In this document: positions 42,299-60,182 of the stretch, piece by piece
Numbering within the stretch: position 1 is the first letter of the stretch
Layout of the letters: every line of letters begins with the position of its first letter
IMG/VR virus record: IMGVR_UViG_3300042542_003631
Location: 1 to 64,000 of that record
Direction: 5' to 3' (one strand)
Length of the DNA stretch: 64,000 bases
From: a virus
Translations under genes and position numbers: made by a program
The notes under the pieces: model-generated
The model's database searches: none
What the model saw: only the letters and a program-made list of their open reading frames with translations
What the model was told of the DNA's origin: nothing

Positions 42299-42640
42299 TC
42301 ATTTCTTGACGGGGCGGACCCTGGCACCCATGCCCACGCGGGACTTCTCACGCAGCTTGCCAGCAAGCTCTGACCGGGACATCTCCTTGCGGGTCTTGGG
42401 CGTCTCCGCCGACACACGCTTGGTCGGGCGGCAATACTCATTATCACCCCCAGCCCCACACGGTTTGCCGGTGCGCTGGTCCACCCACTTTTCCCGCTCC
42501 CAGCGTTTCAGCGACTCGCCCTTCGCCCCTTTGCGCACAGCGCCGCTTTCCTTGCGGCACTTGGCAATAGCTTGGCTGGCCCTCGCGGATGGGAAGATGT
42601 CATAGGCGGCCTTGGCGCGGTAGTAGCACTTGTCTTTCAT
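42299..42640 (-). CDS. DUF5872-like basic phage protein
   Basis: A 113-residue basic protein starting at ATG 42640 (MKDKCYYRAKAAYDIFPSAR). The phrases FPSARASQAIAKCRKESG, SLKRWEREKWVDQRTGKPCG and EYCRPTKRVSAETPKTRKEM match, from memory, the DUF5872-type phage proteins (S-A-Y-A-S-x-A-L-x-K-C-R-K; K-W-V-D-x-K-T-G-K-P-C-G; Y-C-R-P-S-K-R-V-S-x-K-T-P-K-T). Their role is unknown; they often accompany virion proteins. It ends the leftward operon, facing the plus-strand genes. Confidence 0.7.
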   Translation of the reverse strand: MKDKCYYRAKAAYDIFPSARASQAIAKCRKESGAVRKGAKGESLKRWEREKWVDQRTGKPCGAGGDNEYCRPTKRVSAETPKTRKEMSRSELAGKLREKSRVGMGARVRPVKK

Positions 42641-42645
42641 GGTCG

Positions 42646-43236
42646 TCAGAGGTTGCGTTCCTTCGTCACCCAGCACCACTCAGGGTAGTAGGCGGTGTCC
42701 TCCTTGTAGGACTCCAGGGGCAGCTGAACCTTGAGGTTCAGGCGGCACCCGCACTGCGCACAGTTGTGGAGGCGATCGGCCGCGTCCGGGCGGCGCCCGG
42801 CCGGGAGCACGCCATCCATGGCGATGATCTCCCCGAGCCGCTCATCGCAGGAGGCGCATCCCCCGGCCCTGACATTGCGCGGGCAGGTGGCGCACGCCTC
42901 GGCGCGGGAGTTGACAACCTCCATCGTGACCAGGTTGGCCCCGCCGAGAATCCAGTTCTTGGCCGTGGTGAAGAAGCGGCCGAGCGTCTCGAAGGTCACG
43001 CCCATCACAGGGGTGGAGGTCGTGCTCTCGCAGTAGGGAGGCTTCAATCCCATCTGCTCGCATACCGCACACTCGATCTGTTCATCCGTCATGGAGTCCC
43101 GCCCATTGCTGGACAGGAATCCCTTGACGGCGACGATCAGTTTGCGGGAACTAAAATTGGCGATGTAGCTGCCCGTGACCGGGTCGCGCCAGCGCCACTT
43201 TCCGTTGGGGGTGGGTGCGTGGTGGTTGATTTTCAT
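42646..43236 (-). CDS. Cys-rich zinc protein next to giant virion protein
   Basis: A 196-residue protein starting MKINHHAPTPNGKWRWRDPV. It has a central helix pair then a cluster of zinc-type Cys: ECAVCEQMG, EACATCPRNVRAGGCASCDE and NCAQCGCRLNLKV. This multi-knuckle arrangement recurs in phage proteins encoded beside structural genes. It overlaps the giant gene by 4 bp (ATGA), so it is probably translated with it. The role may be structural or DNA-linked; no enzyme motif is seen. Confidence 0.65.
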   Translation of the reverse strand: MKINHHAPTPNGKWRWRDPVTGSYIANFSSRKLIVAVKGFLSSNGRDSMTDEQIECAVCEQMGLKPPYCESTTSTPVMGVTFETLGRFFTTAKNWILGGANLVTMEVVNSRAEACATCPRNVRAGGCASCDERLGEIIAMDGVLPAGRRPDAADRLHNCAQCGCRLNLKVQLPLESYKEDTAYYPEWCWVTKERNL

Positions 43237-46200
43237 TTCGCTTGCCAGTGGGGGACGATCTCACGGTTGAAGATGCGCGCCTGGATGACCTCCTTCGCAT
43301 AGTTGCGGGCGGCGGTGCATTGCTCATTGAGCATTTCCTGCGCGGCCTTGCGGCCTGCCTGGCCTTCCGCTGCGAGGTCGGTCAGTTCCTTGATGAACTC
43401 AGGAGTCATGCGATCACGCATCTGCTCGCCGAACATCTTGATGGCGTCAACCTCGACCTCCGGCTCGAAGGAGTTTAGCAGCCCGCCCTCGGTGTCAATC
43501 TCGTCAGAGCCGTCCTCGTAGGTGTCGAAGCTCATCTGGCTGCCCTTGGGAGGAGACAGGAACAGACCGGCGCTGACCAGCGGGGTGATGATCGGGTCCA
43601 CGGTCGGCCCCGCCGTGGTGGGCAGGATGCGCTTGGTGGCGGGAGCATACCAGAAGTTGGTCACTGGGGTGCCCATGGTGTTGACCATGTCCTGCTGGCC
43701 AAGCTCCGCGCCGTAGATCTCGTTGGCGGGCAGCATGCTGAGGGCAGCTGCGGCGAACCCACGGGAGTCCTTGAGCGTGTATTCCCCGCCGCCGGCGAGA
43801 CCACGACCCATGGAGGTCACATCTCGCAGCAGGCGAGGGTTGGTCGCGCCGCCGATGAAGTTGGTCAGCAGCTTGCCCATGTTCCTGGCGGTCATAGCCT
43901 CGGCAAGGTCGTTGTCGCTCAGGAGTTCCCCGGCCTGCGCGAGGCCCTGCAGGGAGTTCTTGACGGTCACGGCCTTGATGAAGGCGATCGAGGCGTCAGC
44001 CAGATACTCCAGCTCCTTGATCTTCTTGGGGTCCTTGAAGCTGTTGACCATGCGCATGTCCGTGATGGACGCGAGGCCGCCGAGCAGCAGGTTGAACCCC
44101 GGGATGTCCTTCCAGGAGAGATAGAGGTCGCCGATCTTGACGGTGTAGGGAGACCAGTTCGGCTGACGGTAGCGCAGCTGGCGGTTGCGCTCAGCGTCCG
44201 GGTAGCCTTTGCCGTAGACCATGAACCAGGGCACGCGGCCCTCGTCCTCGTCGTCCATCCCAGCCCAGTAGGCGGCACCGATGGCAAGCTGCGCGACGGT
44301 AGCCACAAGGCCCTGCGACATCAGCTTCCCATATTTCAGGGAGCCAAACTCCACCCGCTCACGCTGGTAGCGGCTGTCTTCACCCAGCAGCCAGCGGGAG
44401 GGGCTCATGTTATGTGCCCGCGCAAAGGAGAGGAGCGGGAAGCTCATGGCGAGGGAGAAGTCCAGCAGGTTGCCCATGGCTCGCGGGAACGAGACGATGA
44501 TGGAGGACAGGCCCTTGGTCTTGCGCTCGATCGAGCCGAACACGCTGTCAAAGATCATGCCAGCGACGCCGGTCGGGGTGGTGCCCAGGTTGGCAAAGCG
44601 GGCCGACTCGCGGCTCGCCTCCATGAAGTCTTCCTTGTCCTTGGCCTCCATGCGGGAGGTGAGCTCCGCATAGGCCTCCGCACGCCGCTGCTCCAGCAGT
44701 TGGTAGCGGCGCGACTCCATGGCGAGATCAGGGCGCGGGCTGTTGCGGAACTGGTCACGCTCCGCGTCCAGGATCGCGTTGATCTCGCGGCTCTGCAGCT
44801 CGTCCGGGGAGAAGGACTTGCGCATGACCTCCTTGATCTTCTGGCGGTCGGCACCGCTCTTGGTCAGGGCATACTGCAGCGCCAGACGTTGACGAGCCAG
44901 GGAGGCTGGCACGGACACGGTGGCGTCAACCACGGCGCCGATGCGGCCGAGCAGCTTGTAGAAGGTGGCCGAGCTCATCAGTTGCTTGATGACCGGGATG
45001 TCCAGCGTGGGGATGTCCCGTTCGAGCACCAGCATGTTCTCAGACTGCTCCGAGGCGAAGCGGGTGCGCCCCGTCAGGGCGGCTCGCTTGATCTCCGTCC
45101 AGACCTCCTTGCGACCGAGAGGGTCGGCGATCCACCCCACGGCGCGCATCAGCGTCAGGAGGTTGCTGGCAGCCAGCGCCGGTTCCCCGGCCTTGACCGC
45201 GTAGGCGGAGGCGTTGAACCCGAGATCCATGATGGACTGGATGGTGCCGAAGCCAAAGTTGACCTCGGAGGTGCCAAAGCCGCTGAGCACTCCGGCCTTC
45301 CACATGGCGACCGGGACTCCGGCAAGGTATTCCCAGAGCATGCTGCGATCCTTGACGAGTGCCTTGGCACCGTAGGCATCCAGCAGGCTGCGGTAGGTCT
45401 CGTTGGCGATGCGGGCATTGAGGTCACGGATGGCGTCGTTGCGCTGCACGGAACCGACCGGCATGGCCGAGATGCGCTCAGCCTCGCGGTCAAGCTCTGC
45501 GGCGACCGCCGGGTCGTAGGTCGGCAGGCCGAACTCGGTGGCCATGGCGTTGTAGAACTCATCCTTGCGCAGGCCGCCGATGCGGGCGAGGCGGAGGAAC
45601 CGCTCGCTCCGGGAGTAGCGCTCTGCACCCCCGCGACCCTCATACATGGAGCGGCGCTGCGCGTAGTTCGTCAGCGTCTTCTGGATGCGGCGGTTGGCCT
45701 CGGCTTCGTAGGCGGTCTTGAACGCCTCAGCCACCTTGCGTGACTGCTCGGCGTCGAGGCCGGCGGCGTTGGAGATCATCGTGGCGAGGTGTGTGACGCT
45801 GGCCCGCTGGTCAGACAGGGAGAGGTAGACCTGCTCCCGCATGTCGAAGGACCTGCGGACGATGTCCGTGGCCATCTGCATCGGGACAATGTCAAGCTGC
45901 ATGGCTGCGATCGCTGCCTTGGCTGCCGCATACTGCTTCAGGGCTTCGGGGGTGGAGCCCTTCTTCGCTTCGAGGTGGGCGAGGAGCTTGGCCTTGCTCT
46001 GGTTGAAGGCGCGCTCCACGCTCGGGGCGTAGTCGAATGAGGCGACCATCTTGCGAATGGCGCTGTCGAGCGCTGCACGGTCGGCGGCTTCCTGCTGCGC
46101 GGGGGTAAGGGCTGGGTTCGGCGGGGCGACTTCAGCCAGCGCTGCGTTGACGCGCATGGCGATGAGGCGCTTCACCTCGTTGGAGTATTCCTCGAAGAAG

Positions 46201-49200
46201 GTCTGCTCGGGCTCACCGGCTGCGCCAGCGACCCGCTTGACCTGCGCCTGAACAGTCCCTTCCACCATGCTGAAGATGCGGTTGGCGACCCAGTCAGCCA
46301 TCCTGGCCGGGATCGGCACGCCGGTGCCACGGTCACGGAGGTCCTGCAGGAGCTTGACCGGCATGGTCTCCATGAAGTCGAACATCATCTGGACCTCGGC
46401 GGGGCTGCCACCGGCGGCCCTGGTCATGGCCTCCACGATCTTCTTGGTCAGGGGCGACTTCTTGACAACGCCGGCGGCCACATCGTCAGCCTCCTTCTGG
46501 AGGTCGGAGAACACGTCGTCAAGGTCCTTGGGCAGGCTCTTCTCCGCACTTTTGGTGGCGGCGTCACGGTAGACGGCCGTCGCGACGCGGGGGTTGAGGA
46601 CCTCGCGGGCGATGTTCGCAGCGTTGAGCATCGTGCCGGAGGTGGACGCGACGTCCTGCACATCGCGGCCAATCCTCTTGGCCACGTCTTCGTAGTCGGC
46701 AAGCATGCGGAGCCCGCCGGGGGTGGGCGCTTTGACCATGGCTTCCTGCAGGGCGAAGATGCGCCCGTTGACCGCCTGCAGCAGCACCACCTTGGCAAGG
46801 AACCGCTGGGGGTCGGTCAGGGCTAGGCGACCTTTGTCAAGGGCATACGCGAGATTAGAGAACTCCGCTGCGCCTGTGGCTCCTGCGATCGACCGGCCGA
46901 GGAGCCTGTCAATGATTTCCAGGTCAGCCTTGGCGACACCGCTGAAGTAGGTGCTCTCCTGCAGGTAGTCCTGCACACGGGCAGGCATGGCAGGCAGTGA
47001 GTTCTTCAGGGCTTCCGTGCTCTTGCGCTCGCCGGTGACTTTGCCAGGTCGGAACAGCGGCGCCGGGGCGAACCGAATGTCGGGCGACGCGGGCTGGAAC
47101 CGCTTGGAGGGAGGGATGACGTTGCCGGACTCGTCGCGGGTAATGGGGTCGGCCAGCTTGAGCTGAGCCGGATCGAGCAAAGCCACGACTGGCACAGCCG
47201 GAGGAGTCTCGACCCGCTTGGACTCATAGAACCTCACCGCTGAGTAACCTGCTCGCGCAATCGCGTCCCTCAGCTTCCCTTCATCTGCCGCAAAAGCCCG
47301 GAATAGCGGCTCTCCGCCACCCAACTGAGCCACCGGAACATCTCCCTCAGTAACATCTACCCCGGATTTTTGCAGAGCACTCGCGATGTCTTGGCGGCTC
47401 ATTCGGAAGATAGACTCTTCTCCGAGAGCCGTCAGATCGAGAGTGTTGCCTTCTTTGACGAAGAAGTCCGTCACGGCCCCATACGAAGCTGCATAGTTTC
47501 GGTTTTCAGTCAGCCAGATATAAGGGCGTCGTGCATCAGCAACAGTGAATGAGCCTCCTCCGCGAGAGTAGGACTTGTCGTAGCCAGCGGCCTTCGCGGC
47601 CGCGTCAACCATGCGCTGCAACTCCTCGCGGTTCTTCTCAGGGTCCTTGGCCAGTTCAAGGTATCGAGTGTCCTGCTCAGAGAGCGGCGACGGGGCGAAG
47701 TAGGTGCCAGTGCCGAGCTTGGACTCGTAGGCCGCGATCTCGTCGGCGGCTGCGTCAAGTTCGTCCTGCTCGTCAAGGAAGGCGTCAACCTCGTCAGCCA
47801 TGGCGGCTCCTTCCTCCCCATACTGGATGACCCGTTCCTGCTGGGACAGCTCCTCCTCGGTGAGGAGCCCGGCACCTTTGAGCACCTTCATGCTCTGGAA
47901 CACACCCACCCCGCCGAACGCCTTGCTGGAGGGCTTGACGACCACATGGGGGTAGGAGGCGATGTCAAAGATCCGGGCGAGGCTCTTCTCCATCACGGAG
48001 TCGACCTCCAGGTCGGGGAACACGATCCGGTAGATGTGGGAGAGCACGCGCTTGATGAAGCTGACAGGCCCCTTGGCCCCGGGGACCTGGGCGCCGACGG
48101 AGGCAGGGACTTTGGACAGCCACTCCACAAAGCGCGGATTGGACATCACGCCGGCGGCGAACTCGTCAAGATCGCTCAGCTGGTAGGCGAACTCTTCCGA
48201 TCCTTTCTGAGCCTTGACGGCTTGGCGCAAGGCGCTCAGTTCCCTGATCGCAGCCTCCACCTTCGGCGGCTGGCTGACGCCCTGCTCGTGCCGGAAGATC
48301 GCGAGGGTAGTCACCGCATGGGTGGCCTCGTGGACCAGCGCTTCGACGACCCACGTCTTGGACCACAGGGTGGCCTTCTTGTCGTGGGCAAACTCGTTGG
48401 AAATCTCAGGCAGGTTCAGCGCGATCGTGTGCGTGGCTGCCTCGTAGAATCCAGCCGGGCGAGCCCCGCTGCTGTCGGTCTTGCCGCCGACAAAGAACAG
48501 GAGGTTGGACAGCTTCTTGATGTCCGGGTTCTTGCTCAGCTCCTTGGCGATGGCCCGGGTGGCTGGGTTGACGCCAGGCAGGTCAGCGATGCGTGCGAGC
48601 GCGACGGCCACAGAGCTGCCGTCACCCTCCGCGAGCCCGAGGGTGTCCTTGACGAAGCCTTCGAGTTCGGTTGACGAGAGCTGCGTGGTCTCCGGCGTTT
48701 CCCCGTCAAGCACCTGGCGGCGCATATCCTCGCGGATACGGGCGACCCGCTGCGCGTCGGCGAGGACTTCGTCAATCGTCTTGCCCTGGAGATTGGCAAC
48801 CACCTGGGCCGCCTCATGCTTGGACGGCTTGGGAGCCGGGGCTGCCGGGGCGGGGGCGGCGGCCGGGGTGACAGCCTGGAGGAACTCGTCAATGTTGAGG
48901 ATCGCCCGGGTGGCGTTCACATCGCCGTAGGCGCGCCACCAGGTTGCGAACTGCCGGGCGGTCGCCTTCAGGAAAGCGGCCGTGCGGGCAAAGGTGCCTG
49001 GGGAGGCGGCGATCATGTCGAGCACGTCCTCCGAGGTGTAGCCGGTCTCGGACACCTGACGCATCATGCGGTAGTAGTCCGCGCCGAGCTGGATCATGTC
49101 GGCGGTGACGTCCTGTGAATAACCGCTGCGGCCGGTCTGGAAGTAGTCCATGAACCCAGGGTCGCCGGGGTTGAGCCCATAGACTCGCTTGATGATCCGG

Positions 49201-52200
49201 CGGCGCTGGTCGTCCGAAAGGTCGCGGGCGGTGGCCAGCAGCTCGCCGTTGCTGAACCTCTGGAGGATCGCAAGGGTTGACGCCTCCCGGTCAAGCAGGG
49301 CGTTGAGGTAGGCGGTGGTCTCGGCGGTGCTGTAGCCGCGGGCGCGGAGGCGCCCCACGAGCTCAGTCATCGCACCCCGGTTCATATAGATGGTGGTGTC
49401 CGTGCGGTCGTTGCGCACATAGAGCGGCTGCTCCGGCACGCCTGGACCAGCGTCCACCATGGCGACCTCGCGGCCGGTCTTCGTGCGGGCGGCGCGGAGG
49501 AACGGACCGAAGTCGAGTGGCTCCTTGGCGCCGCTCTCGGTCACGGTCTCGACATAGGGCTCGGCGAATGGGACCTCTTCCTCGGCGGGCTCGGCCACCG
49601 GGACCTCTTCCTCGGCGGGCTCGGCCACCGGGACCTCTTCCTCGGCGGGAGCGGCCGGCTTCGCAGCCTTCAGCGTCCGCTTCCTCTTGCGAACCTTGGG
49701 GGTGCGCTTGACGCGGCTCGTGCCCTGGGGCTCCGTTGCCGGGGCGCTGCCGAGGGCAGCATCGTCCGGCAGCAGCGCAGCATCGAGTCCAGCCACTTCC
49801 TCAGGGTCAGCAGCCGGGGAGTCATCGCCGGTGAGGCGTGCCTCCACCGTGTCGGTAGTGTCGGGGGAGTCGGCCAGTTCCACCGCCTCGTTGGCGGCCT
49901 GCTGGTGGTTGACTTCCTCGGCGCTGGCGGTGCGGCTTTTCGGGAAAGCGATTTCGGGGTTGTGGAGCACCGCCTTGATGGAGTCGAGGAACCGCTTGCC
50001 GGGGCAAGGGCTCTTCGTCATCAGATCGCCGGCGGTCATCAGCCCGGCGTGCAGGCCGGAGCCAAAGCTCATCGGCTTGCCAGTCAGGAGCTCGCCCAGA
50101 GCCAGCCAGAAGCGGCCCCATGCGGACTTGAGCTTCGGAGCTTTGACGACACCCGTCTCGTAGGACTGGAGCATGCTCGCGAACTCGGGGGAGGTCAGCA
50201 TCGCCTGCATGAAGGAAGGGGTGTCCTTCAGGGCATCAGTGAATCGGGGCTGCAGACCTTCAGGGCGGAGCTTCGCTTCCATGGCAACCGCTTCCAGGCG
50301 AAGCTCTTCGAGCTTGGCGAGGGCGGCTTGCTGGGTGGCGGTCAGCGGGGTGCCCGGGGCGGTGAGGCTGGTCACTGCGTGAGTGACCAAGCCGCGCAGC
50401 AGGGCTTCAGGGGCTCGGGGCGTGCCGTCAAGGGTAGGCGTCATGGCAGCCACGTTGAGCACCAAGTTGCCTTCGACCACGCTGACGTCGGCGGAGAGCG
50501 CCGGGTCTTCGATGATCTGCACATTGTCGATGCCGTCCAGCAGGGAGGGCTTGCCGTGGAAGACGCGGGCCAGTGACTTGAAGTAGTCGCTGGCGGCGGA
50601 GGCTTTGAGGCTCATCCGCTTCAGCGCATCGTAGAGGCTGACGCGGTCGGCGCCGTCCACCAGGCCGATCGCGGCGAGCTCGCTCCTGAACATGGAGCGT
50701 TCCTCCGCCGTGTTGACCGGCTCGGGGACAATCGCCTTGGTCGGGACCACACCGGCCTTGACCGCCTTGGTCGGCGCGGGAGAAGTCATGTCCCGGCGCT
50801 TGGCCACTCCCCTGGCTTCCGCAGCCTTGAGATCCGCGTCAACCTTGGCTTTGGCGACAGAGAGCACAGCCGCCGGAGGCGGGGCGACCTTGCTGCGGAT
50901 CGCCGCGTAGGCGCGGGTGACGCCCTCAAGGGAGTCGGCGGCGTCGCGCAGGTTGATGTCTGACAGCTGGCGGGACTCGTTCAGGGAGGAGAGCTCCGCG
51001 TTGAGCTTGGCGAGCTCCCTGCGGTTGGCCTCCTGCGTCTTCTTGTCCAGGTTGGGGTCCTTGCTCTGCGCCCTGAGTTCATCAATGCGCCCGCGGACCA
51101 CACGCTGGCGTGCCTCGATGCGGTCCATCTCGGCCTTGATGCGGGCGACGAGGGCCTTGCCGCTCTCGACGCTGGTCTGCAGTTCCGCGACCCGCTCCTG
51201 AACCCGTCGCTCAGAGGCGGCGCTAGGGGGAGCGGCACGCCCCACAACTTCCGTGGTCCGGGCGGTCGATTGCAACACGCGGCGGAGCCAGGCCCTGGCC
51301 TCCGCATGGGTGAGGTGCGTGTATCCGGCGTTGGCCGCGATGTTCTTGACGGCCTGGTCGATGATGCGGCCGGCCGTAGAGGTGTCGCCCGTGTGGACCA
51401 CGGTGAACACCTCCACGAGGTTCTTCTTGCGGATGTCCTCTTCCGAGAACATCGGCGCCCCGATCGGAGTCTTGGCGCTCCGCATGACCGCACGTCCGAG
51501 AGTCGTCATCTCCAGAAAGAAACGGGCGACATCGGGGACGCTGGCAAGGTGCTTGGCCAGGTCGTTGCTGCCAGGAGGCACCACGCCGTTGAGGACGCCG
51601 TCAAGCGCCGTGCGCTCATCCTGAGACAGGGGAGGGCCGTGCTCGAAGAGCAGGTTGCCATCAGGCCCGACCTTGAACTGGAGCCCCTGCTCAGCGGCTT
51701 CCAGAGCCCGGCGGGCCTGCAGCGGGTTGGCTCGGAGCAGCCCCAGCGAGACCGGGTCGGGGTTGCCATCATTCATCTCCTGCAGGGTGTCCTTGAGCTC
51801 GCTGACTTCATCCCCCGTGAGCGGGGTGACCGAAGCCTCATCCGTGCTGATCTGCTCGGCGAGGGCTTCGGCGTCAATCGAGGCCGCCTCCGCAGCCAGG
51901 CCGGCTGTCAGCTGGTCAGCAGTTGACAGCTCCTCGTCAATGCTGCCGGTAATCAGGGCGCGGTGGGTCCGGGCGGCGTCGTTAAACTTCCTCAGGACGT
52001 TTTTGTAGACCAGAGTCACGAAGTTCGGCAACTTGGGCAGCAGGGTTGCAGGGTCGGCATCCGGGTTGGCCAGGAGCGCCTTGCGAACCTTGACCAGCGC
52101 CTCGTTGTTGACCGCGTTCTCCATGGTCTCGACCAGGTCGCTGTCAGCCAGCCGGGGGAACTGCTCCTCCAGCGTCCTGCGCACGACGGCCTGGACATAC

Positions 52201-55200
52201 GTCATGCCGGAAGCGGGGTCAGGCCTGGTGTCCAGGCGGAGGTAGCTCGTCAGGAGGGCTCCTTCCCCGGGGGCTTCGGCGGGGGCGTGCTGGCTCACAT
52301 AGGCATCCGTGCCGATGAATGGGACGCGGGGGTCGCGCTCCTTCTGCAGGGCCATGATCTGCTTGATGAGCTGCCTCTTTTCCTCCTTCATCTCGGCGAG
52401 CGCAGTGGGGGCAAGCGGCCGCTTGCCCGAGACGGCGTCAACGAGGACATTGGTCGCTGCACGCAGGTCATCCAGGAGCTGCTCCATGGTCTTACCCGTC
52501 TTCTTGGCGACGTTCTCGCCTGCCTTCAGCATGGCCTCGACGCGGGCCTGACGCCGTGGGCTGGCTTTGTAAAGCTCATACCACTCGCCTTCCCCGGTGA
52601 CGGGGGTGTCGCCACGGGAGTAGTCATAGGCGGCGGTCACCTGGCCGGTGGCCTCGTCAATCTCAATGCCCTTGGCCAGTTTGTCGCGCAGGTCAGCAGG
52701 CACGGTGACCTTCAGCCCGGAGTTGAGCTGCTTGGCCGTCAGCACAGGGTCGTTGGTGAAGAACCCGACACGCTCGCCATTGACGGTCTTGAACGGGACT
52801 GCACCGCCAGCATTGTCAATCGCCTCCTTGGTGTCAGGCAGCGGCTTCATCCTAGGCCCATACTTCGAGCCGGTGAAGAAGCCTTCAGGCTCGCCACCCT
52901 CAGGCGGATGAGCATCAGCCCAGGCCTTGCGCACGCGGGCTTCCAGAGCTCGCGCCTCGGGGCTGCCATTCGATGGGCCGCGTTTGGTCAACGCCTTGAT
53001 CGCCGAGTTCAGCTCGGAGCTTGACGGGATGAAGCCGGTCTCAAGCATGAGCTTGATGACCCGGGACTCAGCTTCCTCCTGCTGAGTGGGGGCGGCAGGT
53101 GCCGGGGCAGGCTTGCCCCGCTTGACGAGTTTGACGGCAGGCGGAGTCGCTCCCGCAGAGAGGCGGGCGGCAAGCTCGGCGGCCTCCCGCGTGACGCGGG
53201 CGCGCTGCGCCTTAGCTTCCGCTTTGGTCAGCTTCCGGCCCGGGGCTGCTTGACCTTGACGAGTCCCTGATGGAGCTCGCGCTGGAGCTTTTTCTTCTGC
53301 GACTCGTCCAGCGGGCTGCCCTTGGACAGGAGATACGCCACTTGCTTGCGGCTCTTTTGCTTGGGTGTCATCGGCTTTGGGGGTGGGGGGTTTCGGGGCT
53401 GGGGCTGCGGGGGAGGGTGCGACGGGCTGGGTGGGGGCAGGGGCAGCCTCTGCAGCTTTGACAGTCGTGATGAATCGGTCAGCGAGGTTGCCGCGGCGTT
53501 GCGACCCGGTAAAGGTGGCAGGGTATTTCCACTCACCATCCTCGAACACCGCATCACCGGTGACGATGATGTCACCCTCACTACGGTAGACGTCAGAGGT
53601 CACAACCGAGCCCTTGCCGAGCACGTTCTTGGGTCCGGGGGCCGGAGTGGCTGCGGCGGCAGGAGCAGCGGGGAATTTAGCAGCCTTCTTCGCTTCGAGA
53701 TCGGCAATCTGCTTCTGGAGGTCAGCGTCACCCGCCTCTCCATAAGTGAACTCAGAGGCGAACTGCTTGCGGTATTCAATGTCCTTGGTCAGCTCCTCTT
53801 CGGTGGCTGTGTCAAGAGGGAGAGGGGGCGGAGGGATCGTCGCGGGCTTCTTGACAGCGGCAGGAGCGGCAGTCTCCGAGGGCTCACTTGGAGTGGCAAA
53901 TGGGTCGGCCGTCGCCTGCTCGGGTTCGGCCACAGGGACCATGGTGTCAGGGTTGGCGGAGATCGCAGCGCGCAGGCCATCAAGGCGTTGCTGCAGCTCC
54001 TCGCGCTGGGGGTCGTCAGCGGGGAGAGCGTTGAGCTGAGCCTCCACGTCGCGAGCGACCACCGTGGCTTGGGCGTAGGCGGGCTGACCTTGCAGCGCAG
54101 CCTCCGCGTCAGCCTGTGCTTGCGCGGCTTGCTGATCGAGTTCGGCCTGCGAGACCTGCTGGTTGGCCTTCTCGCGCATGGCCGCGGCCGAGGCAGGAAG
54201 ACCGGCAGCGTCAAGATTGTCGGCGGCGGCGAGCTGATCCTTGACCGCAGGGTTCTTCTTGAGTTCGCGGCGGGCCAGGTAGGCGTCCATCGTGGCGAAT
54301 GGCGCGGACATGCCAGCACCGAGCAGGCCGCCAGCGGCCGCAGCCTTCAGGGTGTCCATCACGATTTCAGAGACCGGCTTGCCCGGGTCGACCGCGATCT
54401 TGTCGATGACGCCATTGACGAACTCGTCAAGACCTTCCTCGGTGGCTTCCGAGAGGGCCTCTTTACCGAGCGACTTGCCGAGGAACACGGCCATGCCTTC
54501 CTTGGCGGCTTGCGCGGCTTTACTGACCTGGGGAGCAGCGAGCTTTTCAGCACCGGTGGCACCGAATCCAGCGGTGATCGCGCTGGTGACGAGGCCGGAA
54601 ACGATCGCACGAGCACGGGCGCCATCACGGGCGCGACGACGGGCAGCCTCGACGACTTCGGGGGTGCGCTCCGCATCGGGGATGCGGGAGAGCTCGTCCT
54701 TGAGGAACTCGTCAAAGTATTGGTTGAACGCTCCGCCAGCGCTCTGCATGCCAGCGGCGAACGACGAGGCGGCGAGACCGCCGGTCTTGGCCAGGGCCAG
54801 GCGGCGGGCTTCGATCTTGGCAGCCGCAGCACCTCCGGCCCTGAGCGCGGCGGCTGTGGCGAAGGTGCCAGCGCCGACACGGCCTGCGGTGGCGGCGGCA
54901 GCGGTGCGGCCCGCGAGCGTGCCCACCCCGCGAAGTCCAGCAACCACACCTCGACCAGCAAGGCCTGCGGGGGCGGTGGCCAGGGAGGTGACCATCATCG
55001 AGGCCGCGTCGGAGGCGTATGTTGCTCCCCCGGTTGCCTCGCTGGCGGCAGCCAGCTCGCCACTGAGTTTCCCTGTGGCTTCGGCACGGGCGACGGTCTC
55101 CTCGTCCTCCACCCCGACGAGTCGCTTGACGCCGTAGTAAGCACCGAGGGTATCGCTCATGCCCCGCAAGGCTCCGAGCTTGATCTGGGTGCCGAGATTG

Positions 55201-56000
55201 GAATACCACGCACCGTTCTCTTCCTGCCAGCGCTCCATGACATCAGCGTCCGTGGCGTCAGGGTTTGCCTCACGGAGGTCCCGCTCAAACTGGTTGAACT
55301 TGTTGGAGCCCCAGACGGAGTCGCCAAAGGCGTCCTCCATGCTGGTGATCTCGCCACGGAGCTTGGCCCCCACATCCTCGCGGAGCCGGCGGCCCTCCAT
55401 CATGGCGTCAGCCTTCTGCTCATCTGTCAGGTTGGTCGCCTTGACAGCGTCGCGGTAGCGAGACTTGGACAGGGCGAGGGAAGGGCTGGCGTAGAACTTG
55501 CCGTTGGCGACATGGAACTCACGGTCGTCGTTGGCGACTTCCTCGACTGCGTCAAGGTCATCGTCGTCAGAGGCTCCCAGGACGCTCTTCAGCTTCTGGA
55601 GTTCGTCACGGTCTTCGGGCGTCAGGGTGGCAAGGTCAGTCCCGCCGAAAGTTGACCTGGCCTTCGACTCGATCTCGCGCTTGCGGGCCGCGAGCTGCAT
55701 CCGGTCAGGAGCCGCGGACGAGGCCTCATTGTCAGCCTCCTCGGTAGCTGCGGCGAAGCCGCTGGCCCCACGCAGCTCGGCCCCCTTCTGCTTGCGGAAC
55801 TCCTTGAACTTAGCCCACCGCTCAGGCGAGATGTTGTCAGAGTCGTCAGCCGCGGCCTTGGTGAACTTCTGCTGCCAGATGTCAAAGGTCTCCTTGCGGG
55901 TCTTGGGGTCCCAGGTCGAGTAAGAGGGGGACTGTTCGATGTCAGTCCAGCGTGGGAGTTCAGCGAAAGTCTGGGGCTTGGTTTCGGTCGCAGTGGCCAT
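43233..56000 (-). CDS. Giant polyvalent ejection-type protein (about 4255 aa)
   Basis: Start at ATG 56000 (MATATETKPQTFAELPRWTD). Layout by approximate residue: 1-230 charged helical start; 250-420 Ala/Gly-rich hydrophobic segments; 420-570 helical domain with KEALSEATEEGLDEFVNGVI; 600-1000 linkers; 1850-1890 a degenerate metallopeptidase (LVTHAVTSL); 2557-2561 an intact HEATH zincin site (VEALVHEATHAVTTL); 2780-2985 an ADP-ribosyltransferase-like domain ending SPDIRFAP; 3000-3800 helical; 3850-4200 an LPD-like end (SWKDIPGFNLLLGGL). These fit the polyvalent proteins that phages inject with DNA to counter host defence. The long single frame has no stop. Individual activities are inferred. Confidence 0.8.
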   Translation of the reverse strand: MATATETKPQTFAELPRWTDIEQSPSYSTWDPKTRKETFDIWQQKFTKAAADDSDNISPERWAKFKEFRKQKGAELRGASGFAAATEEADNEASSAAPDRMQLAARKREIESKARSTFGGTDLATLTPEDRDELQKLKSVLGASDDDDLDAVEEVANDDREFHVANGKFYASPSLALSKSRYRDAVKATNLTDEQKADAMMEGRRLREDVGAKLRGEITSMEDAFGDSVWGSNKFNQFERDLREANPDATDADVMERWQEENGAWYSNLGTQIKLGALRGMSDTLGAYYGVKRLVGVEDEETVARAEATGKLSGELAAASEATGGATYASDAASMMVTSLATAPAGLAGRGVVAGLRGVGTLAGRTAAAATAGRVGAGTFATAAALRAGGAAAAKIEARRLALAKTGGLAASSFAAGMQSAGGAFNQYFDEFLKDELSRIPDAERTPEVVEAARRRARDGARARAIVSGLVTSAITAGFGATGAEKLAAPQVSKAAQAAKEGMAVFLGKSLGKEALSEATEEGLDEFVNGVIDKIAVDPGKPVSEIVMDTLKAAAAGGLLGAGMSAPFATMDAYLARRELKKNPAVKDQLAAADNLDAAGLPASAAAMREKANQQVSQAELDQQAAQAQADAEAALQGQPAYAQATVVARDVEAQLNALPADDPQREELQQRLDGLRAAISANPDTMVPVAEPEQATADPFATPSEPSETAAPAAVKKPATIPPPPLPLDTATEEELTKDIEYRKQFASEFTYGEAGDADLQKQIADLEAKKAAKFPAAPAAAATPAPGPKNVLGKGSVVTSDVYRSEGDIIVTGDAVFEDGEWKYPATFTGSQRRGNLADRFITTVKAAEAAPAPTQPVAPSPAAPAPKPPTPKADDTQAKEPQASGVSPVQGQPAGRVAEEKAPARAPSGTRQGQAAPGRKLTKAEAKAQRARVTREAAELAARLSAGATPPAVKLVKRGKPAPAPAAPTQQEEAESRVIKLMLETGFIPSSSELNSAIKALTKRGPSNGSPEARALEARVRKAWADAHPPEGGEPEGFFTGSKYGPRMKPLPDTKEAIDNAGGAVPFKTVNGERVGFFTNDPVLTAKQLNSGLKVTVPADLRDKLAKGIEIDEATGQVTAAYDYSRGDTPVTGEGEWYELYKASPRRQARVEAMLKAGENVAKKTGKTMEQLLDDLRAATNVLVDAVSGKRPLAPTALAEMKEEKRQLIKQIMALQKERDPRVPFIGTDAYVSQHAPAEAPGEGALLTSYLRLDTRPDPASGMTYVQAVVRRTLEEQFPRLADSDLVETMENAVNNEALVKVRKALLANPDADPATLLPKLPNFVTLVYKNVLRKFNDAARTHRALITGSIDEELSTADQLTAGLAAEAASIDAEALAEQISTDEASVTPLTGDEVSELKDTLQEMNDGNPDPVSLGLLRANPLQARRALEAAEQGLQFKVGPDGNLLFEHGPPLSQDERTALDGVLNGVVPPGSNDLAKHLASVPDVARFFLEMTTLGRAVMRSAKTPIGAPMFSEEDIRKKNLVEVFTVVHTGDTSTAGRIIDQAVKNIAANAGYTHLTHAEARAWLRRVLQSTARTTEVVGRAAPPSAASERRVQERVAELQTSVESGKALVARIKAEMDRIEARQRVVRGRIDELRAQSKDPNLDKKTQEANRRELAKLNAELSSLNESRQLSDINLRDAADSLEGVTRAYAAIRSKVAPPPAAVLSVAKAKVDADLKAAEARGVAKRRDMTSPAPTKAVKAGVVPTKAIVPEPVNTAEERSMFRSELAAIGLVDGADRVSLYDALKRMSLKASAASDYFKSLARVFHGKPSLLDGIDNVQIIEDPALSADVSVVEGNLVLNVAAMTPTLDGTPRAPEALLRGLVTHAVTSLTAPGTPLTATQQAALAKLEELRLEAVAMEAKLRPEGLQPRFTDALKDTPSFMQAMLTSPEFASMLQSYETGVVKAPKLKSAWGRFWLALGELLTGKPMSFGSGLHAGLMTAGDLMTKSPCPGKRFLDSIKAVLHNPEIAFPKSRTASAEEVNHQQAANEAVELADSPDTTDTVEARLTGDDSPAADPEEVAGLDAALLPDDAALGSAPATEPQGTSRVKRTPKVRKRKRTLKAAKPAAPAEEEVPVAEPAEEEVPVAEPAEEEVPFAEPYVETVTESGAKEPLDFGPFLRAARTKTGREVAMVDAGPGVPEQPLYVRNDRTDTTIYMNRGAMTELVGRLRARGYSTAETTAYLNALLDREASTLAILQRFSNGELLATARDLSDDQRRRIIKRVYGLNPGDPGFMDYFQTGRSGYSQDVTADMIQLGADYYRMMRQVSETGYTSEDVLDMIAASPGTFARTAAFLKATARQFATWWRAYGDVNATRAILNIDEFLQAVTPAAAPAPAAPAPKPSKHEAAQVVANLQGKTIDEVLADAQRVARIREDMRRQVLDGETPETTQLSSTELEGFVKDTLGLAEGDGSSVAVALARIADLPGVNPATRAIAKELSKNPDIKKLSNLLFFVGGKTDSSGARPAGFYEAATHTIALNLPEISNEFAHDKKATLWSKTWVVEALVHEATHAVTTLAIFRHEQGVSQPPKVEAAIRELSALRQAVKAQKGSEEFAYQLSDLDEFAAGVMSNPRFVEWLSKVPASVGAQVPGAKGPVSFIKRVLSHIYRIVFPDLEVDSVMEKSLARIFDIASYPHVVVKPSSKAFGGVGVFQSMKVLKGAGLLTEEELSQQERVIQYGEEGAAMADEVDAFLDEQDELDAAADEIAAYESKLGTGTYFAPSPLSEQDTRYLELAKDPEKNREELQRMVDAAAKAAGYDKSYSRGGGSFTVADARRPYIWLTENRNYAASYGAVTDFFVKEGNTLDLTALGEESIFRMSRQDIASALQKSGVDVTEGDVPVAQLGGGEPLFRAFAADEGKLRDAIARAGYSAVRFYESKRVETPPAVPVVALLDPAQLKLADPITRDESGNVIPPSKRFQPASPDIRFAPAPLFRPGKVTGERKSTEALKNSLPAMPARVQDYLQESTYFSGVAKADLEIIDRLLGRSIAGATGAAEFSNLAYALDKGRLALTDPQRFLAKVVLLQAVNGRIFALQEAMVKAPTPGGLRMLADYEDVAKRIGRDVQDVASTSGTMLNAANIAREVLNPRVATAVYRDAATKSAEKSLPKDLDDVFSDLQKEADDVAAGVVKKSPLTKKIVEAMTRAAGGSPAEVQMMFDFMETMPVKLLQDLRDRGTGVPIPARMADWVANRIFSMVEGTVQAQVKRVAGAAGEPEQTFFEEYSNEVKRLIAMRVNAALAEVAPPNPALTPAQQEAADRAALDSAIRKMVASFDYAPSVERAFNQSKAKLLAHLEAKKGSTPEALKQYAAAKAAIAAMQLDIVPMQMATDIVRRSFDMREQVYLSLSDQRASVTHLATMISNAAGLDAEQSRKVAEAFKTAYEAEANRRIQKTLTNYAQRRSMYEGRGGAERYSRSERFLRLARIGGLRKDEFYNAMATEFGLPTYDPAVAAELDREAERISAMPVGSVQRNDAIRDLNARIANETYRSLLDAYGAKALVKDRSMLWEYLAGVPVAMWKAGVLSGFGTSEVNFGFGTIQSIMDLGFNASAYAVKAGEPALAASNLLTLMRAVGWIADPLGRKEVWTEIKRAALTGRTRFASEQSENMLVLERDIPTLDIPVIKQLMSSATFYKLLGRIGAVVDATVSVPASLARQRLALQYALTKSGADRQKIKEVMRKSFSPDELQSREINAILDAERDQFRNSPRPDLAMESRRYQLLEQRRAEAYAELTSRMEAKDKEDFMEASRESARFANLGTTPTGVAGMIFDSVFGSIERKTKGLSSIIVSFPRAMGNLLDFSLAMSFPLLSFARAHNMSPSRWLLGEDSRYQRERVEFGSLKYGKLMSQGLVATVAQLAIGAAYWAGMDDEDEGRVPWFMVYGKGYPDAERNRQLRYRQPNWSPYTVKIGDLYLSWKDIPGFNLLLGGLASITDMRMVNSFKDPKKIKELEYLADASIAFIKAVTVKNSLQGLAQAGELLSDNDLAEAMTARNMGKLLTNFIGGATNPRLLRDVTSMGRGLAGGGEYTLKDSRGFAAAALSMLPANEIYGAELGQQDMVNTMGTPVTNFWYAPATKRILPTTAGPTVDPIITPLVSAGLFLSPPKGSQMSFDTYEDGSDEIDTEGGLLNSFEPEVEVDAIKMFGEQMRDRMTPEFIKELTDLAAEGQAGRKAAQEMLNEQCTAARNYAKEVIQARIFNREIVPHWQAK
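49571..49650 (-). repeat. 30-bp tandem repeats in giant gene
   Basis: Two perfect copies and one partial copy of a 30-bp unit (GGACCTCTTCCTCGGCGGGC plus TCGGCCACCG, plus strand) encode VPVAEPAEEE in a linker of the giant protein before the second metallopeptidase domain. Confidence 0.9.
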
Positions 56001-56042
56001 ATTCAACCACCATGCCCAAAGAAGCCCCGTTCGTCAAGGAAC

Positions 56043-57062
56043 CTAGAAGGCCTCGCTGGAGCCCTGGGTGCTGGGAGGCGATCCCGCAGCCCCCCTGTTC
56101 CTGTCCAGGAAATCTTGGGCGGCGTCAGGGCGTCCGGCAGCCCCGAGGTTCTTGGCCTGTGTGAGGAGCCTGTCAAGCTCCGCCATGTATTCCCTGCGCC
56201 GTGCCGGCTCCGCCTTGATCTTGTATTGGAGCGTCTCGATCTCGGCGTTGAGGATGGCCGTCGCGGAAGCGGCCTGCTTGCGCCGACCGATCTGAGCCCG
56301 GGCGTTGTCCCCGAGTTTGCCGCCGTCAAGTTTCTTCAGGGCTTCGATTTCAGCGGGGGAGAAGCCGAGGTCGAGCAGATCCTTCTTCGTGGACCGCTGG
56401 TTGCGGTCGCGGGTAAGCTCCTCCGTCAAGGAGGCTAGTTTGGCAGGAACCTCCGTCGGGCGGGTCTGCTGGAGCGAGCGGATTTCGTTGATCTTCTTGG
56501 AATAGGAGGGCAGGAAGTCCTCGTCACCGAGGTCTTCAGCATACTTCTGAGCCAGACGCTCCACGCCTTCGAGGCTACTGCGGGCGTCAGCGCGGTCTTC
56601 GCGGGCGACCTCACGCTCAGCGATGCGGCCTTCCTCTTCGATTCGGCGCTGATTCGCGTCAGCCAGTTCCTTCTGGCGGGTGCTTTCGGCACGCGCTTCC
56701 CCAGCGACCCCGAGGAATGACTGGACGGAGCGTGAGGCGAGGGCATTGGCGGCCCCGGGCTTGGACAGCTCGCGGGTGAGATCCTGGAAATAAGTCGGGC
56801 TCCGGGGATCGAGGCTCGTCAAGCCCGGCATCAGGGCAGCAGCGGCGGCTTCCTCCTCCTTGCGGCGGCGTTCAGCATCGCGTTGACGCTGAGCTTCCTC
56901 CTCGTTGATCCGCAGGGACTGCTCCTGACCGGCAAGTCCGAGCGCGGTCTTGCGCACGTCGGCGGCAGCCTTGAAGTATTCGGGCACAACGACACCCATC
57001 GCACGCGAGGTGAGGTAGGTGGGCTGCGGGGTTGCGGGGTTGAGCCAGTCAGCGAGAGCCAT
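56043..57062 (-). CDS. Coiled-coil internal virion protein (putative)
   Basis: A 339-residue protein starting MALADWLNPATPQPTYLTSR. It is mostly charged helix, with long Glu/Arg/Ala coiled coils (INEEEAQRQRDAERRRKEEE, DANQRRIEEEGRIAEREVAR). The N-terminus has VVPEYFKAAADVRKTALGLA. Position between the giant ejection-type protein and the tape-measure-like protein points to an internal or ejected virion protein as in podoviruses. No enzyme motif is visible. Confidence 0.6.
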   Translation of the reverse strand: MALADWLNPATPQPTYLTSRAMGVVVPEYFKAAADVRKTALGLAGQEQSLRINEEEAQRQRDAERRRKEEEAAAAALMPGLTSLDPRSPTYFQDLTRELSKPGAANALASRSVQSFLGVAGEARAESTRQKELADANQRRIEEEGRIAEREVAREDRADARSSLEGVERLAQKYAEDLGDEDFLPSYSKKINEIRSLQQTRPTEVPAKLASLTEELTRDRNQRSTKKDLLDLGFSPAEIEALKKLDGGKLGDNARAQIGRRKQAASATAILNAEIETLQYKIKAEPARRREYMAELDRLLTQAKNLGAAGRPDAAQDFLDRNRGAAGSPPSTQGSSEAF

Positions 57063-57074
57063 GGTGGGGGAGAG

Positions 57075-58151
57075 TTACTTTTTTGCGAGGGCGGCCTGGA
57101 GAAGTTTGCGAGCCTTCTTTTTCTTCAGGTCCTTGTTGGGAACCACTTCCCCATCCTCGGCAGGGACGACAATTTCGGGGCCGCGCTCGCCCACAAGATA
57201 GGGCCGGCCAGCCTTGACAGGGCCGCCTTGCTCACGAGCGGCAATCATCGGAGGCTTAGGCAGCGCGGCAGCTGGGAGATAGCTGGGGTTGTTCTTCAGC
57301 AGCTCCTCAGCGGAGCGAACACGAACTCCACGCATTGTGTCAACAGTCTTACCGATCCCACGAGCGATTTCGCTACTGTCCGCCATCTGCGGAGCAGCCG
57401 GAGCAGCTAGTTGAATTGGCGGACGGGACGACACAGGAGCCGTGGGCTTTGTCACAGACGTAGCCGCAGGAGCAGGAGCAGGAGCAGCAGGGGCCGGGGC
57501 GGCAGGAGCAGCAGGAGCCGCTGGTAGCTCCGGCAGCGGCTTGTTCATGTCCTCCATCTCCTCCTTGGTGTATTCCCGGGCCAGGCTAAACCCAGCCTTA
57601 ACGGGACCGCGAACGTCCCCCGCGTCGGGCGTGGTCGACTCGGTGGGAGGGGGAGGAGTCGAACCAGCGGGCGGAGGAGTCGAACCAGCGGGCGGAGGAG
57701 TCTCGCCTGAGGGAGCCGGGGGAGTTTCCTTCGGCAGATCTGTGATGTTACCAGCCTCGTCCATGACCTTGCCGAAGGACTTGGCCGACTCGTTATACTT
57801 CTGACGGGTGGACTCAAAGGTGCCGGCGGCCTTGGCCGCAGCGATCTTGCCCTCACGGGTCTGTCCCGCCATGGCTGGCAGCTGCCCACGCATCTGGTTG
57901 GCCAGGGCTTCACGGGAGGCCACACGGCCCTGGGCGATGGAGGCAACATCTTCGGCGCGGCCAGTGCTACCGTAGGCCTGGCCCTCCCCTTCGAGACCGG
58001 CCGCGAACTGCAGCGCCTTCTCGTAGTTCTTCTCCTTCTTGGCCTGGCGCAGCCCCTTGCGCAGGAGCGAAGCGCGGCCACGGGAAGCGGCAGCCTCGCG
58101 AGGGACTTCGCGATCCATGCCGAGGGTGTATCGTGAGGTGGTGATAGCCAT
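57075..58151 (-). CDS. Tape-measure-like / internal virion protein
   Basis: A 358-residue protein starting MAITTSRYTLGMDREVPREA. Residues 1-145 are helical; 145-250 a long Pro/Ala-rich linker with repeats (GSTPPPAGSTPPP, PAAPAAPAAPAPAAPAPAPA); the end holds REQGGPVKAGRPYLVGERGP then EIVVPAEDGEVVPN, the well-known C-terminal signature of phage tape-measure proteins. In a short-tailed phage it may be an internal core or tail-extension protein. It lies 1 bp from the next upstream gene. Confidence 0.65.
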   Translation of the reverse strand: MAITTSRYTLGMDREVPREAAASRGRASLLRKGLRQAKKEKNYEKALQFAAGLEGEGQAYGSTGRAEDVASIAQGRVASREALANQMRGQLPAMAGQTREGKIAAAKAAGTFESTRQKYNESAKSFGKVMDEAGNITDLPKETPPAPSGETPPPAGSTPPPAGSTPPPPTESTTPDAGDVRGPVKAGFSLAREYTKEEMEDMNKPLPELPAAPAAPAAPAPAAPAPAPAATSVTKPTAPVSSRPPIQLAAPAAPQMADSSEIARGIGKTVDTMRGVRVRSAEELLKNNPSYLPAAALPKPPMIAAREQGGPVKAGRPYLVGERGPEIVVPAEDGEVVPNKDLKKKKARKLLQAALAKK

Positions 58152-58152
58152 A

Positions 58153-59085
58153 TCAGTAGCCGGTGCGGAGTCCGGGAGAGCCGTAGTGGAAGGTTGGAAT
58201 CACGCGAGCCTTGCCGCGCAGGCGGCGCAGCTCAGCGTTGAGCAGGGCGTAGGCCTGGTCAAAGTGGGCGATGGACGAGTCAAGGTCTGACGAGTCCTCC
58301 AGGCGCAGAGCGATCAGCCCGTGCTTCAGCGCGCCGACGTTGCTGGGAATCACCAGGTCATCCTCGTGGACGAGTTCGACATGGCGGCGGCTGCAGAGGG
58401 CGGAGATGGTGCAGTTGTCAGAGATGGCTCCGACCTTGTAGCGCCGGTAGCTGGGGTCATCCTCGCCGGGTTCATAGATCCCGAGCTCCGTGTCGCCGGA
58501 GCGGAGGGAGCAGTATTTGCTCATGCCAGGGAGCGTGAGGCTCTCGATCTTCAGAACCTGCTGGGGGAAGGTGTTGTCGCCGGCGGCGAGTGTGACGCGC
58601 ATGCCGTCGACGCCATCAGCGTCCACAATTCGCTGGCCTTCAGCATCATACCCACGCAGCACAGCCTCGCCACCGATGCCGGTGTCGCCAGCCGCCACCC
58701 GCAGGAAAACGGAGGCCTCCTCGGTCAGATCGGTGTGGACGCAGACGTCCGACATCTCGATCACGGAGTTCATGGTGCGGTCAAAGTTATGGGCGCCCGG
58801 GCCGACTTCGTTGAACTCGTGGGCGAGGGCGTAGATGCGGCGGGGCGACTGGTTGGATACCTGCAGGCCGAGCAGCGCCGCAGCCCTGCGCGGGAGTGTG
58901 ATGTATCCGTTGGGGGCGCTGACCTCCACCACGAACTCGGACTTGGCCCACAGGCCGCTGTCAAGGAATCGCTGGGTCACCTGGTTGAGGCACCGCAGGA
59001 ATTTCTCATCCATCGGGTTGCGCGCATCCACATGCTCGAAGAGCAGGTCGCGGGCCTTGGCAACAGTGAGACGGGCGGAGGGCAT
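58153..59085 (-). CDS. Head-tail adaptor / tail tube-like protein
   Basis: A 310-residue protein starting MPSARLTVAKARDLLFEHVD. The pattern of an N-terminal helix (NPMDEKFLRCLNQVTQRFLD, SGLWAKSEFVVEV), then PNGYITLPRRAAALLGLQVS and RRIYALAHEFNEVGPG, is shared with podovirus-like tail tube A/adaptor proteins. The C-terminal half is beta-rich and ends in helices (HFDQAYALLNAELRRLRGKA). It probably joins portal to tail. Confidence 0.6.
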   Translation of the reverse strand: MPSARLTVAKARDLLFEHVDARNPMDEKFLRCLNQVTQRFLDSGLWAKSEFVVEVSAPNGYITLPRRAAALLGLQVSNQSPRRIYALAHEFNEVGPGAHNFDRTMNSVIEMSDVCVHTDLTEEASVFLRVAAGDTGIGGEAVLRGYDAEGQRIVDADGVDGMRVTLAAGDNTFPQQVLKIESLTLPGMSKYCSLRSGDTELGIYEPGEDDPSYRRYKVGAISDNCTISALCSRRHVELVHEDDLVIPSNVGALKHGLIALRLEDSSDLDSSIAHFDQAYALLNAELRRLRGKARVIPTFHYGSPGLRTGY

Positions 59086-59115
59086 GGGGGAAGGTAACTG
59101 GTTGGGTGGCAGGCG

Positions 59116-60003
59116 TCAAACCTTTCGGTAAGCCATCAGGGCGACCTCACCGTAGGAACCCCACCCTGGGGAAGACAGATCGGGGCCGTTGACCAGGGGG
59201 AAGAAGGTGAGTGAGACGGGGTAGAACCCAACCCTGACGCGGCTGGAAGTCAGGCGCGGGTTGGTGCTCCAATAGGCCTCACCGTCAACATAGTAGTCGG
59301 GGCCTTTCACAAGGTCATCCTGGCGGAGGATCAGATCGTAGCTCCCAACCCCAACCCCCTTGGAGAACTCCGGGTCCAGGCCCCGGTTGGCTCGGTCGTC
59401 AAGATATTCGGGCGTGTAGCCCCGGATCGCGATCTCCATGGAGACCGTCGATGAGACCCTGCCGCTGGGAGCGGCGCTGTCCTGGGGGTAGTAGTTCGCC
59501 CCTCCCGTGAGAGGGGTCTCCGTGGGCAGCGGGGAGTTTGTGAATGACCGTATGGGGGCGAGATACTGATGCACACCTGGGCGGTAGACAGGGCGGTAGT
59601 AGCCGGGCTGCCCCGGCACATCCTCCAGTAGGTCGGAGTCCCTGAACACGGTCTTGTCGTATTCTGACGGGTATTCACGGGAGGCGAGCCAGCTAAGGGG
59701 GAAAGGCACATACCACCCCGTCACCTCGGTATCCACGCCGCCTGGGTCACCCGCCCCGCCGCCACCAGGGATGCTGACAGGTTCGCGCACCGTGACCCGG
59801 CGTGAGTTGACCCACAGGTAGACGTCCAGCACAGCAGGCTCCTTGCCCTCCTCCTCGCCCTCCGGTGCCACCGCAACCATCTGGCCGGTTGGAGAGTCCC
59901 AGGTTTCCACGCCCCGGCCGGTGTTGATGCGGAGGCGGTCCTTCCACTCGGCGATGTAATCGGCGGCGTCCTGGATGACTTGGCGGGCTTGTTCGGGGCT
60001 CAT
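59116..60003 (-). CDS. Hypothetical virion protein
   Basis: A 295-residue protein starting MSPEQARQVIQDAADYIAEW. The N-terminus is helical; the rest is rich in Tyr, Pro and Gly with beta character (YYRPVYRPGVHQYLAPIRSF, GWGSYGEVALMAYRKV). Its place between the adaptor-like gene and the adhesin-like gene points to a tail or baseplate part. It overlaps the previous gene by ATGA. No family is recognised. Confidence 0.6.
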   Translation of the reverse strand: MSPEQARQVIQDAADYIAEWKDRLRINTGRGVETWDSPTGQMVAVAPEGEEEGKEPAVLDVYLWVNSRRVTVREPVSIPGGGGAGDPGGVDTEVTGWYVPFPLSWLASREYPSEYDKTVFRDSDLLEDVPGQPGYYRPVYRPGVHQYLAPIRSFTNSPLPTETPLTGGANYYPQDSAAPSGRVSSTVSMEIAIRGYTPEYLDDRANRGLDPEFSKGVGVGSYDLILRQDDLVKGPDYYVDGEAYWSTNPRLTSSRVRVGFYPVSLTFFPLVNGPDLSSPGWGSYGEVALMAYRKV

Positions 60004-60182
60004 GGTGCGTCGCGGACTACTACAACAGGGAAGCCGGGGTGGGTCAAGGTGTCAGCGTCGGCGGAGTAGACCCCGCCAACCTCCTGCACCGCAGCGTCAA
60101 TCATTGACGAAACGATGCGCAGCACCTCGTTCGCCTGGGCTTCCGGGCCGGCGAGTCCGTCGAGCAGCTGGTCAGAGGTCAT
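60000..60182 (-). CDS. Small hypothetical virion-operon protein
   Basis: A 60-residue protein starting MTSDQLLDGLAGPEAQANEV, overlapping both neighbours by 4 bp. One helix (ANEVLRIVSSMIDAAVQEVG) is followed by a short beta end (GFPVVVVRDAP). Tight coupling to the genes on both sides supports that it is real. Function unknown. Confidence 0.6.
   Translation of the reverse strand: MTSDQLLDGLAGPEAQANEVLRIVSSMIDAAVQEVGGVYSADADTLTHPGFPVVVVRDAP

Follow-up and report, generated by a model that had tools for sequence, protein, structure and literature searches.

N4 virion RNA polymerase (vRNAP) gp50 and the core proteins of the T7/phiKMV type are packaged in the particle and ejected. In N4 gp50 a C1 domain with an HExxH motif is followed by a helical C2, ~1,100 residues (PMC12633501); the protein is packaged uncut, yet its metallopeptidase (MPTase) region is required for encapsidation (PMC5512222). 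For the phage polyvalent proteins described by Iyer et al. 2017, one to five MPTases per protein have been reported, multi-zincin, ART-bearing members are known, and P1 DdrB is processed (PMC5512222). Both podophage ejection proteins and N4 vRNAP repeatedly feature HExxH domains, which may or may not have a cutting role; a review of ejection proteins leaves proteases unmentioned (PMC8954989).

The window analysed here, a stretch of 64,000 nucleotides that corresponds to bases 1-64000 of a linear, 69,220-bp IMG/VR virus record, encodes a giant protein of the same multidomain late type, with zincin MPTase and ART-like parts: several unrelated domains lie in one chain that is encoded among late virion genes. 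The class is already known; the new part is the pair of an intact and a dead zincin. The giant differs from the polyvalent proteins of PMC5512222 in having, besides its active zincin, a dead one that is conserved in this state; a text search of that paper found no dead MPTase and only an inactive PBECR domain, and the open-access literature searched yielded no case of an active zincin accompanied by a conserved dead one. A natural protein that has an intact copy together with a dead one maintained by selection makes the question of the peptidase role testable.

The gene is located on the minus strand at 43233..56000. Its stop-free frame (56006..43233) opens with TTG and has 4257 aa, but the start is likely the ATG at nt 56000 (4255 aa), since a Met at residue 3 is invariant in both relatives. 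This agrees with the start and the extent given in the initial annotation, which did not state the strand. Residue numbers used here are counted from the TTG; ATG-based numbers are lower by 2. Viral contigs yielded two relatives of full length, G001 (IMGVR 3300042319_001750) with 68% and G002 (3300032213_001563) with 55% overall identity. The gene order around the giant is kept in all three genomes, and the proteins are colinear apart from plug-in segments. The named-phage collection gave no close DNA match, and its protein-level matches were confined to the zincin and to the tail of the ART module. A scan of the GTDB genomes gave no relative, prophages included, and searches of Pfam, NCBIfam and PHROGs with the full-length protein gave nothing usable.

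Judged by its HExxH, its third Glu and its relation to solved zincins, the domain at aa 2485-2690 (47937..48554, minus strand; profile matches, 55-row tree) is a zincin metallopeptidase. HEATH at aa 2559-2563 (48318..48332, minus strand), the zinc-binding and catalytic motif, lies in the stretch VEALVHEATHAVTTL (aa 2554-2568) and is the sole HExxH of the entire giant. All three genomes keep it intact (HEATH, HEATH, HESSH). The complete zincin motif noticed earlier near residue 2557 is thereby located, and E2615 (48162..48164, minus strand) can be added as the predicted third zinc ligand; this position is Glu in 51 of 52 sampled intact rows of the family, all of which have HExxH because they were selected on it. 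In tblastn, aa 2558-2634 match internal virion or core proteins of Autographiviridae (Proteus PM75 and PM16, Vibrio VP93, Escherichia IK_ECO1), whose genes sit between a gene for an internal virion protein with a lysozyme motif, or for an internal core protein, and the tail fibre genes. Altogether, 324 phage records carry the intact-zincin domain; the HExxH is kept in six of six further ones examined and is also intact in the zincin domain of phiKMV gp37. An alignment of seven zincins has invariant H, E, H and T as well as a Tyr and a Glu further downstream. The profile made from it matches the solved ejection proteins 23sg gp10 (1.2e-36) and tetrameric PhiM1 gp48 (8vb2; 1.4e-11), the internal virion protein 9sfn (7.8e-7), thermolysin (1e-3) and N4 vRNAP (1e-2), and a profile of the three giants only still matches N4 vRNAP and gp48 (2e-3 to 5e-3). 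The intact zincin is most closely related to those of phiKMV gp37, the PM75, VP93 and KP34-like proteins and PhiM1 gp48. The large internal virion proteins of Autographiviridae have a single zincin in ~1,200-1,340 aa, whereas the giant chain has 4,255 aa.

The second zincin is degenerate and covers aa 1765-2022 (49941..50714, minus strand). The segment RGLVTHAVTSL (aa 1871-1881; 50364..50396, minus strand), part of the degenerate-motif stretch EALLRGLVTHAVTSL (aa 1867-1881), corresponds to the HExxH helix; the relatives have RGIITHATKSL and RGLLTHATSEL at this place. The active site is gone in all three genomes (RGLVTH, RGIITH, RGLLTH) and the position of the third ligand is Ser. The exact register depends on the partner. 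Compared with the active copy, the second His is apparently kept (HEATHAVT/LVTHAVT); with zincins that carry HELLHHAT, a gapless LLRGLLTHAT is the better fit (H to R, E to G, H to T). The H/E/H positions are therefore occupied by R/G/T or, in the alternative register, by G/L/H, and the 55-row alignment places the motif in a third way. The site is dead under every one of these placements. The reading of the initial annotation, a degenerate copy near residue 1870 that lacks the first His and Glu, is borne out, and the third-ligand Glu is lost as well.

The likeness of the two 15-residue motif stretches, taken alone, would be weak evidence, but the relation extends over the whole domain. In hhalign the profile of seven zincins and the profile of three degenerate domains align over 195 columns with a score of 49.9 (E 1.5e-6); the maximum in 100 column shuffles was 23.2 (E 0.021) and the reversed profile scored 15.2. 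When the giant was divided into 32 segments, good scores were obtained only with segments that reach the active zincin or lie inside the degenerate copy. An HMM of the dead copy, built without zincins, matches intact HExxH zincins of unrelated polyvalent proteins (L040, L045) at ~1e-10, and one stretch of locus L027 is recognised by the HMM of the active copy as well as by that of the dead copy. The AlphaFold model of the dead copy, based on three sequences only (pLDDT 76.8), has the order of elements of a zincin, with N-terminal helices, three strands, the motif helix and further helices, in keeping with the fold proposed earlier. Its top Foldseek matches among viral models are podophage internal core proteins, a virion-encapsulated RNA polymerase and polyvalent proteins (E 5e-5 to 9e-3). 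Foldseek against the PDB gave no significant match, and in a second structure comparison with the PDB zincins are among the top ten rows with a Z of only about 4. Profiles, HMMs and the AlphaFold2 model together argue that the domain has zincin fold and ancestry; the PDB structure matches alone are weak.

Where do the two zincins come from? The 55-row tree places the active copies with the Autographiviridae internal virion zincins (support 96/90) and the dead copies, with weak support, among zincins of polyvalent proteins (84/79 and 92/67 for neighbours). Duplication is left unproven, because the best tree parts the copies and the AU test keeps one clade for both (pAU 0.17). The dead copy probably did not arise by simple internal duplication of the active one, as had been assumed in the initial annotation, although a single clade is compatible with the data; separate acquisition of two different zincins appears at least as likely. 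Neither HMM found a second such domain in the other sampled polyvalent proteins, in a search that selected for HExxH, and the pair of intact and dead zincin therefore looks private to this clade.

Downstream of the intact zincin, aa 2773-2981 (47064..47690, minus strand) form an ART-PolyVal-like insert that is absent from G001 and G002. Its boundaries are clean against both, including the more distant G002, and its GC content is 59.6%, compared with 65.2% for the giant gene. The simplest reading of its absence in the relatives and its lower GC is that it was gained in the lineage of the window. Seventeen viral loci match the insert, including the flank of G001. It aligns end to end with L021 and L025, both of which pass the cut-off of the Pfam family PF18760 (ART-PolyVal), and the other two relatives used in the profile approach it; the window sequence itself has no match to PF18760. 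A profile of the four relatives recognises the region with an E-value of 3e-35, and its core alone with 2.4e-5, both in a 4-sequence test set. These matches relate the insert to the ART-PolyVal/Tox-ART-HYD2 clade. H, Y and D are the defining residues of the HYD2 clade (PMC5512222); in the insert, within a loose core alignment, these positions read R2815, W2831 and E2928, the His of YHGT being changed to Arg and the Tyr position being Trp. ADP-ribosyltransferase activity is doubtful because the triad reads R-W-E. The AlphaFold model of the insert is poor (pLDDT 55.8). The ART domain postulated earlier from SPDIRFAP (aa 2974-2981) is thus supported as to its family by the profile, but it is a strain-private insert and its catalytic His is replaced. 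The ends of the ART module are strongly conserved in L021-L036 and L015 (DARYLELAKDPEANREELQRMVDEAAKAAGY ... SADPxTxDExGNVIPLSxRF), and the core varies; L034 and L015 have a different core, possibly of the R-S-E type. The module resembles a cassette whose contents can be exchanged. Since the ART effector cassette has been plugged into an otherwise colinear protein, the giant can be viewed as a delivery chassis.

The remaining parts of the chain also link the giant to polyvalent proteins. The N-terminal domain (aa 3-600; 54207..56000, minus strand) consists of Ala/Gly-rich helices, has a low dN/dS and is also found in the polyvalent giants L039, L040 and L041 (E 7.5e-9 to 7e-11). One of these, the 4151-aa protein of L039 (2120-14572), combines in a single chain an intact zincin, an ART, a SprT-like HEIGH segment and an ATPase domain of the GHKL/histidine-kinase type, the last with a match below the cut-off (HATPase_c 1.6e-4). 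By composition, two linkers follow the N-terminal domain in the giant, one rich in Pro, Ala and Glu (aa 684-747; 53766..53957, minus strand) and one rich in Pro and Ala (aa 839-893; 53328..53492, minus strand). G001 has extra modules at the latter: ~300 additional residues, partly domain-like, stand opposite aa ~780-870 of the window (around 12.5-13.7 kb of L003) and are missing from the window and G002, which makes this a second plug-in site. The middle segment (aa 985-1560; 51327..53054, minus strand) has short similarity to the polyvalent proteins L050 and L052. A linker that is basic, then Glu/Pro-rich (aa 2099-2163; 49518..49712, minus strand), with three repeats of AEEEVPxAEP, separates the dead from the active zincin block. 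The C-terminal region (aa 2985-4257; 43236..47054, minus strand) is conserved, with 64-79% identity of the last 829 aa in the relatives, and is shared with the polyvalent protein L025/L026 (2e-13). A large polyvalent-protein-associated domain had been suspected here; the region is indeed shared with a phage polyvalent protein, but no LPD family of Pfam matches the giant, G001 or L025.

The giant gene lies near the end of a late operon with TerL, head and tail genes. On the minus strand, TerL (10.8-12.6 kb) is followed by more late genes down to base 171 and, provided that the two ends of the linear record are adjacent, the late genes continue from 69 kb as far as the giant. The genes directly upstream (56043..60388, minus strand) have a conserved order with the giant, and one of them (57075-58151, minus strand) has a C terminus that matches tape-measure PHROGs. 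Two small genes are located directly downstream (42299..43236, minus strand), of which 42646-43236 adjoins the giant in both relatives. The giant then converges with plus-strand genes at 12.6-42 kb, replication genes among them. The gene of N4 gp50 has the same place, at the end of the late operon and converging with replication genes, and the two proteins share the order of a zincin and a large C-terminal region. They differ in that the N- and C-terminal regions have no detectable homology and that the giant has two zincins and the ART insert. With profiles of the main segments, similarity to N4 gp50 is confined to the zincin, a full-length profile of the three giants revealed no RNA polymerase domain in the PDB, and neither the giant nor G001 has a Pfam match to a lysozyme or lytic transglycosylase of the T7 gp16 type. 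The phage is probably short-tailed.

To judge from homology and gene position, the virus particle probably contains the giant and delivers it into the host along with the DNA; entry into the cell, as proposed in the initial annotation, is likely in view of the zincin shared with solved podophage ejection proteins and the N4-like position among the late genes. Nothing in our analysis directly contradicts a late cytoplasmic protein that is produced when infection ends and stays outside the virion, but homologues of the intact zincin have been solved within virions or ejectosomes (PMC11440229) and the gene order matches that of N4, which makes this improbable. We consider it likely that the giant is a virion-packaged, ejection-type polyvalent protein with an active zincin for processing, a dead zincin with a structural or docking role and an optional ART effector. 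It would be the counterpart of N4 gp50 and of the phiKMV/KP34-like large internal virion proteins, without the RNA polymerase, and would thread from the capsid into the host together with the DNA or before it. The intact zincin, with HEATH and E2615, may then act as a zinc peptidase that cuts the Pro/Glu-rich linkers of the giant or, after entry, a host protein. Self-cleavage is not a given, because N4 vRNAP is packaged uncut (PMC5512222). The ART-like cassette would be a recent, strain-specific, optional effector insert, possibly inactive.

The role of the dead zincin has to be seen in the light of its conservation. The copies from the three genomes are full-length and in frame with 61-68% identity, and their pN/pS is 0.41-0.44, compared with 0.28-0.57 for the active copy. 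On the basis of this identity and these ratios the domain is not decaying but is under purifying selection in the three genomes. Roleless debris from an old duplication would account for the loss of all catalytic residues, but is highly improbable for a domain that is folded in three phages, at a pN/pS of about 0.42 and with no intermediate decay. The degenerate domain could also have gained a new binding or catalytic function on the zincin scaffold, for example with nucleic acid or a host factor as partner; RG..TH is conserved, with R1871, G1872, T1875, H1876 and A1877 invariant in all three copies, but three sequences are few and no family of that kind is known, so that we regard this as quite unlikely. 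It is tempting to speculate that the dead zincin regulates the active one, which it would cover at its substrate or dimer surface until ejection or refolding, in the manner of an inhibitor built into the chain. The two domains share one chain, and towards G002 the dead copy is constrained at least as much as the active one (pN/pS 0.42 vs 0.57). However, the best tree puts them in different subgroups, so that a shared interface is not implied, and the long basic/Glu-Pro linker plus another domain lie between them; we therefore consider such regulation possible but unlikely. We favour a pseudopeptidase that descended from active polyvalent-protein zincins and has been retained as a module that folds but does not catalyse, most likely with a structural or docking role in the packaged or ejected assembly. 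In a tentative extension that we would not expect to hold, the inactive zincin was recruited from another lineage of polyvalent proteins than its active partner and, as a built-in pseudopeptidase, controls or positions that partner during packaging and ejection; if this were true, the giant would be the first injected phage protein in which a peptidase is paired with a pseudopeptidase.

Some further features of the genome should be mentioned. The late gene at 60385-64000 (minus strand; it extends to 64629 of the record) encodes a 1414-aa protein with Ig-like and NHL-like propeller repeats (DTNHDRV...), as judged by eye, and is perhaps involved in receptor binding. A small gene and a large one lie at either end of the record as paralogues, 171-398 plus 823-2718 and 66329-66544 plus 66897-69110 (all minus strand); the small genes are 82% identical and the large proteins are alike mainly N-terminally, with 50% identity over 220 aa. 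The large protein is possibly a tail fibre. On the plus strand, 13971-16646 encodes an 891-aa protein whose N-terminal half resembles DNA helicase PHROGs and whose C-terminal half resembles exonuclease PHROGs, apparently a helicase-exonuclease fusion, and a single tRNA gene, tRNA-Met (CAT), is present at 38765-38839 (plus strand).
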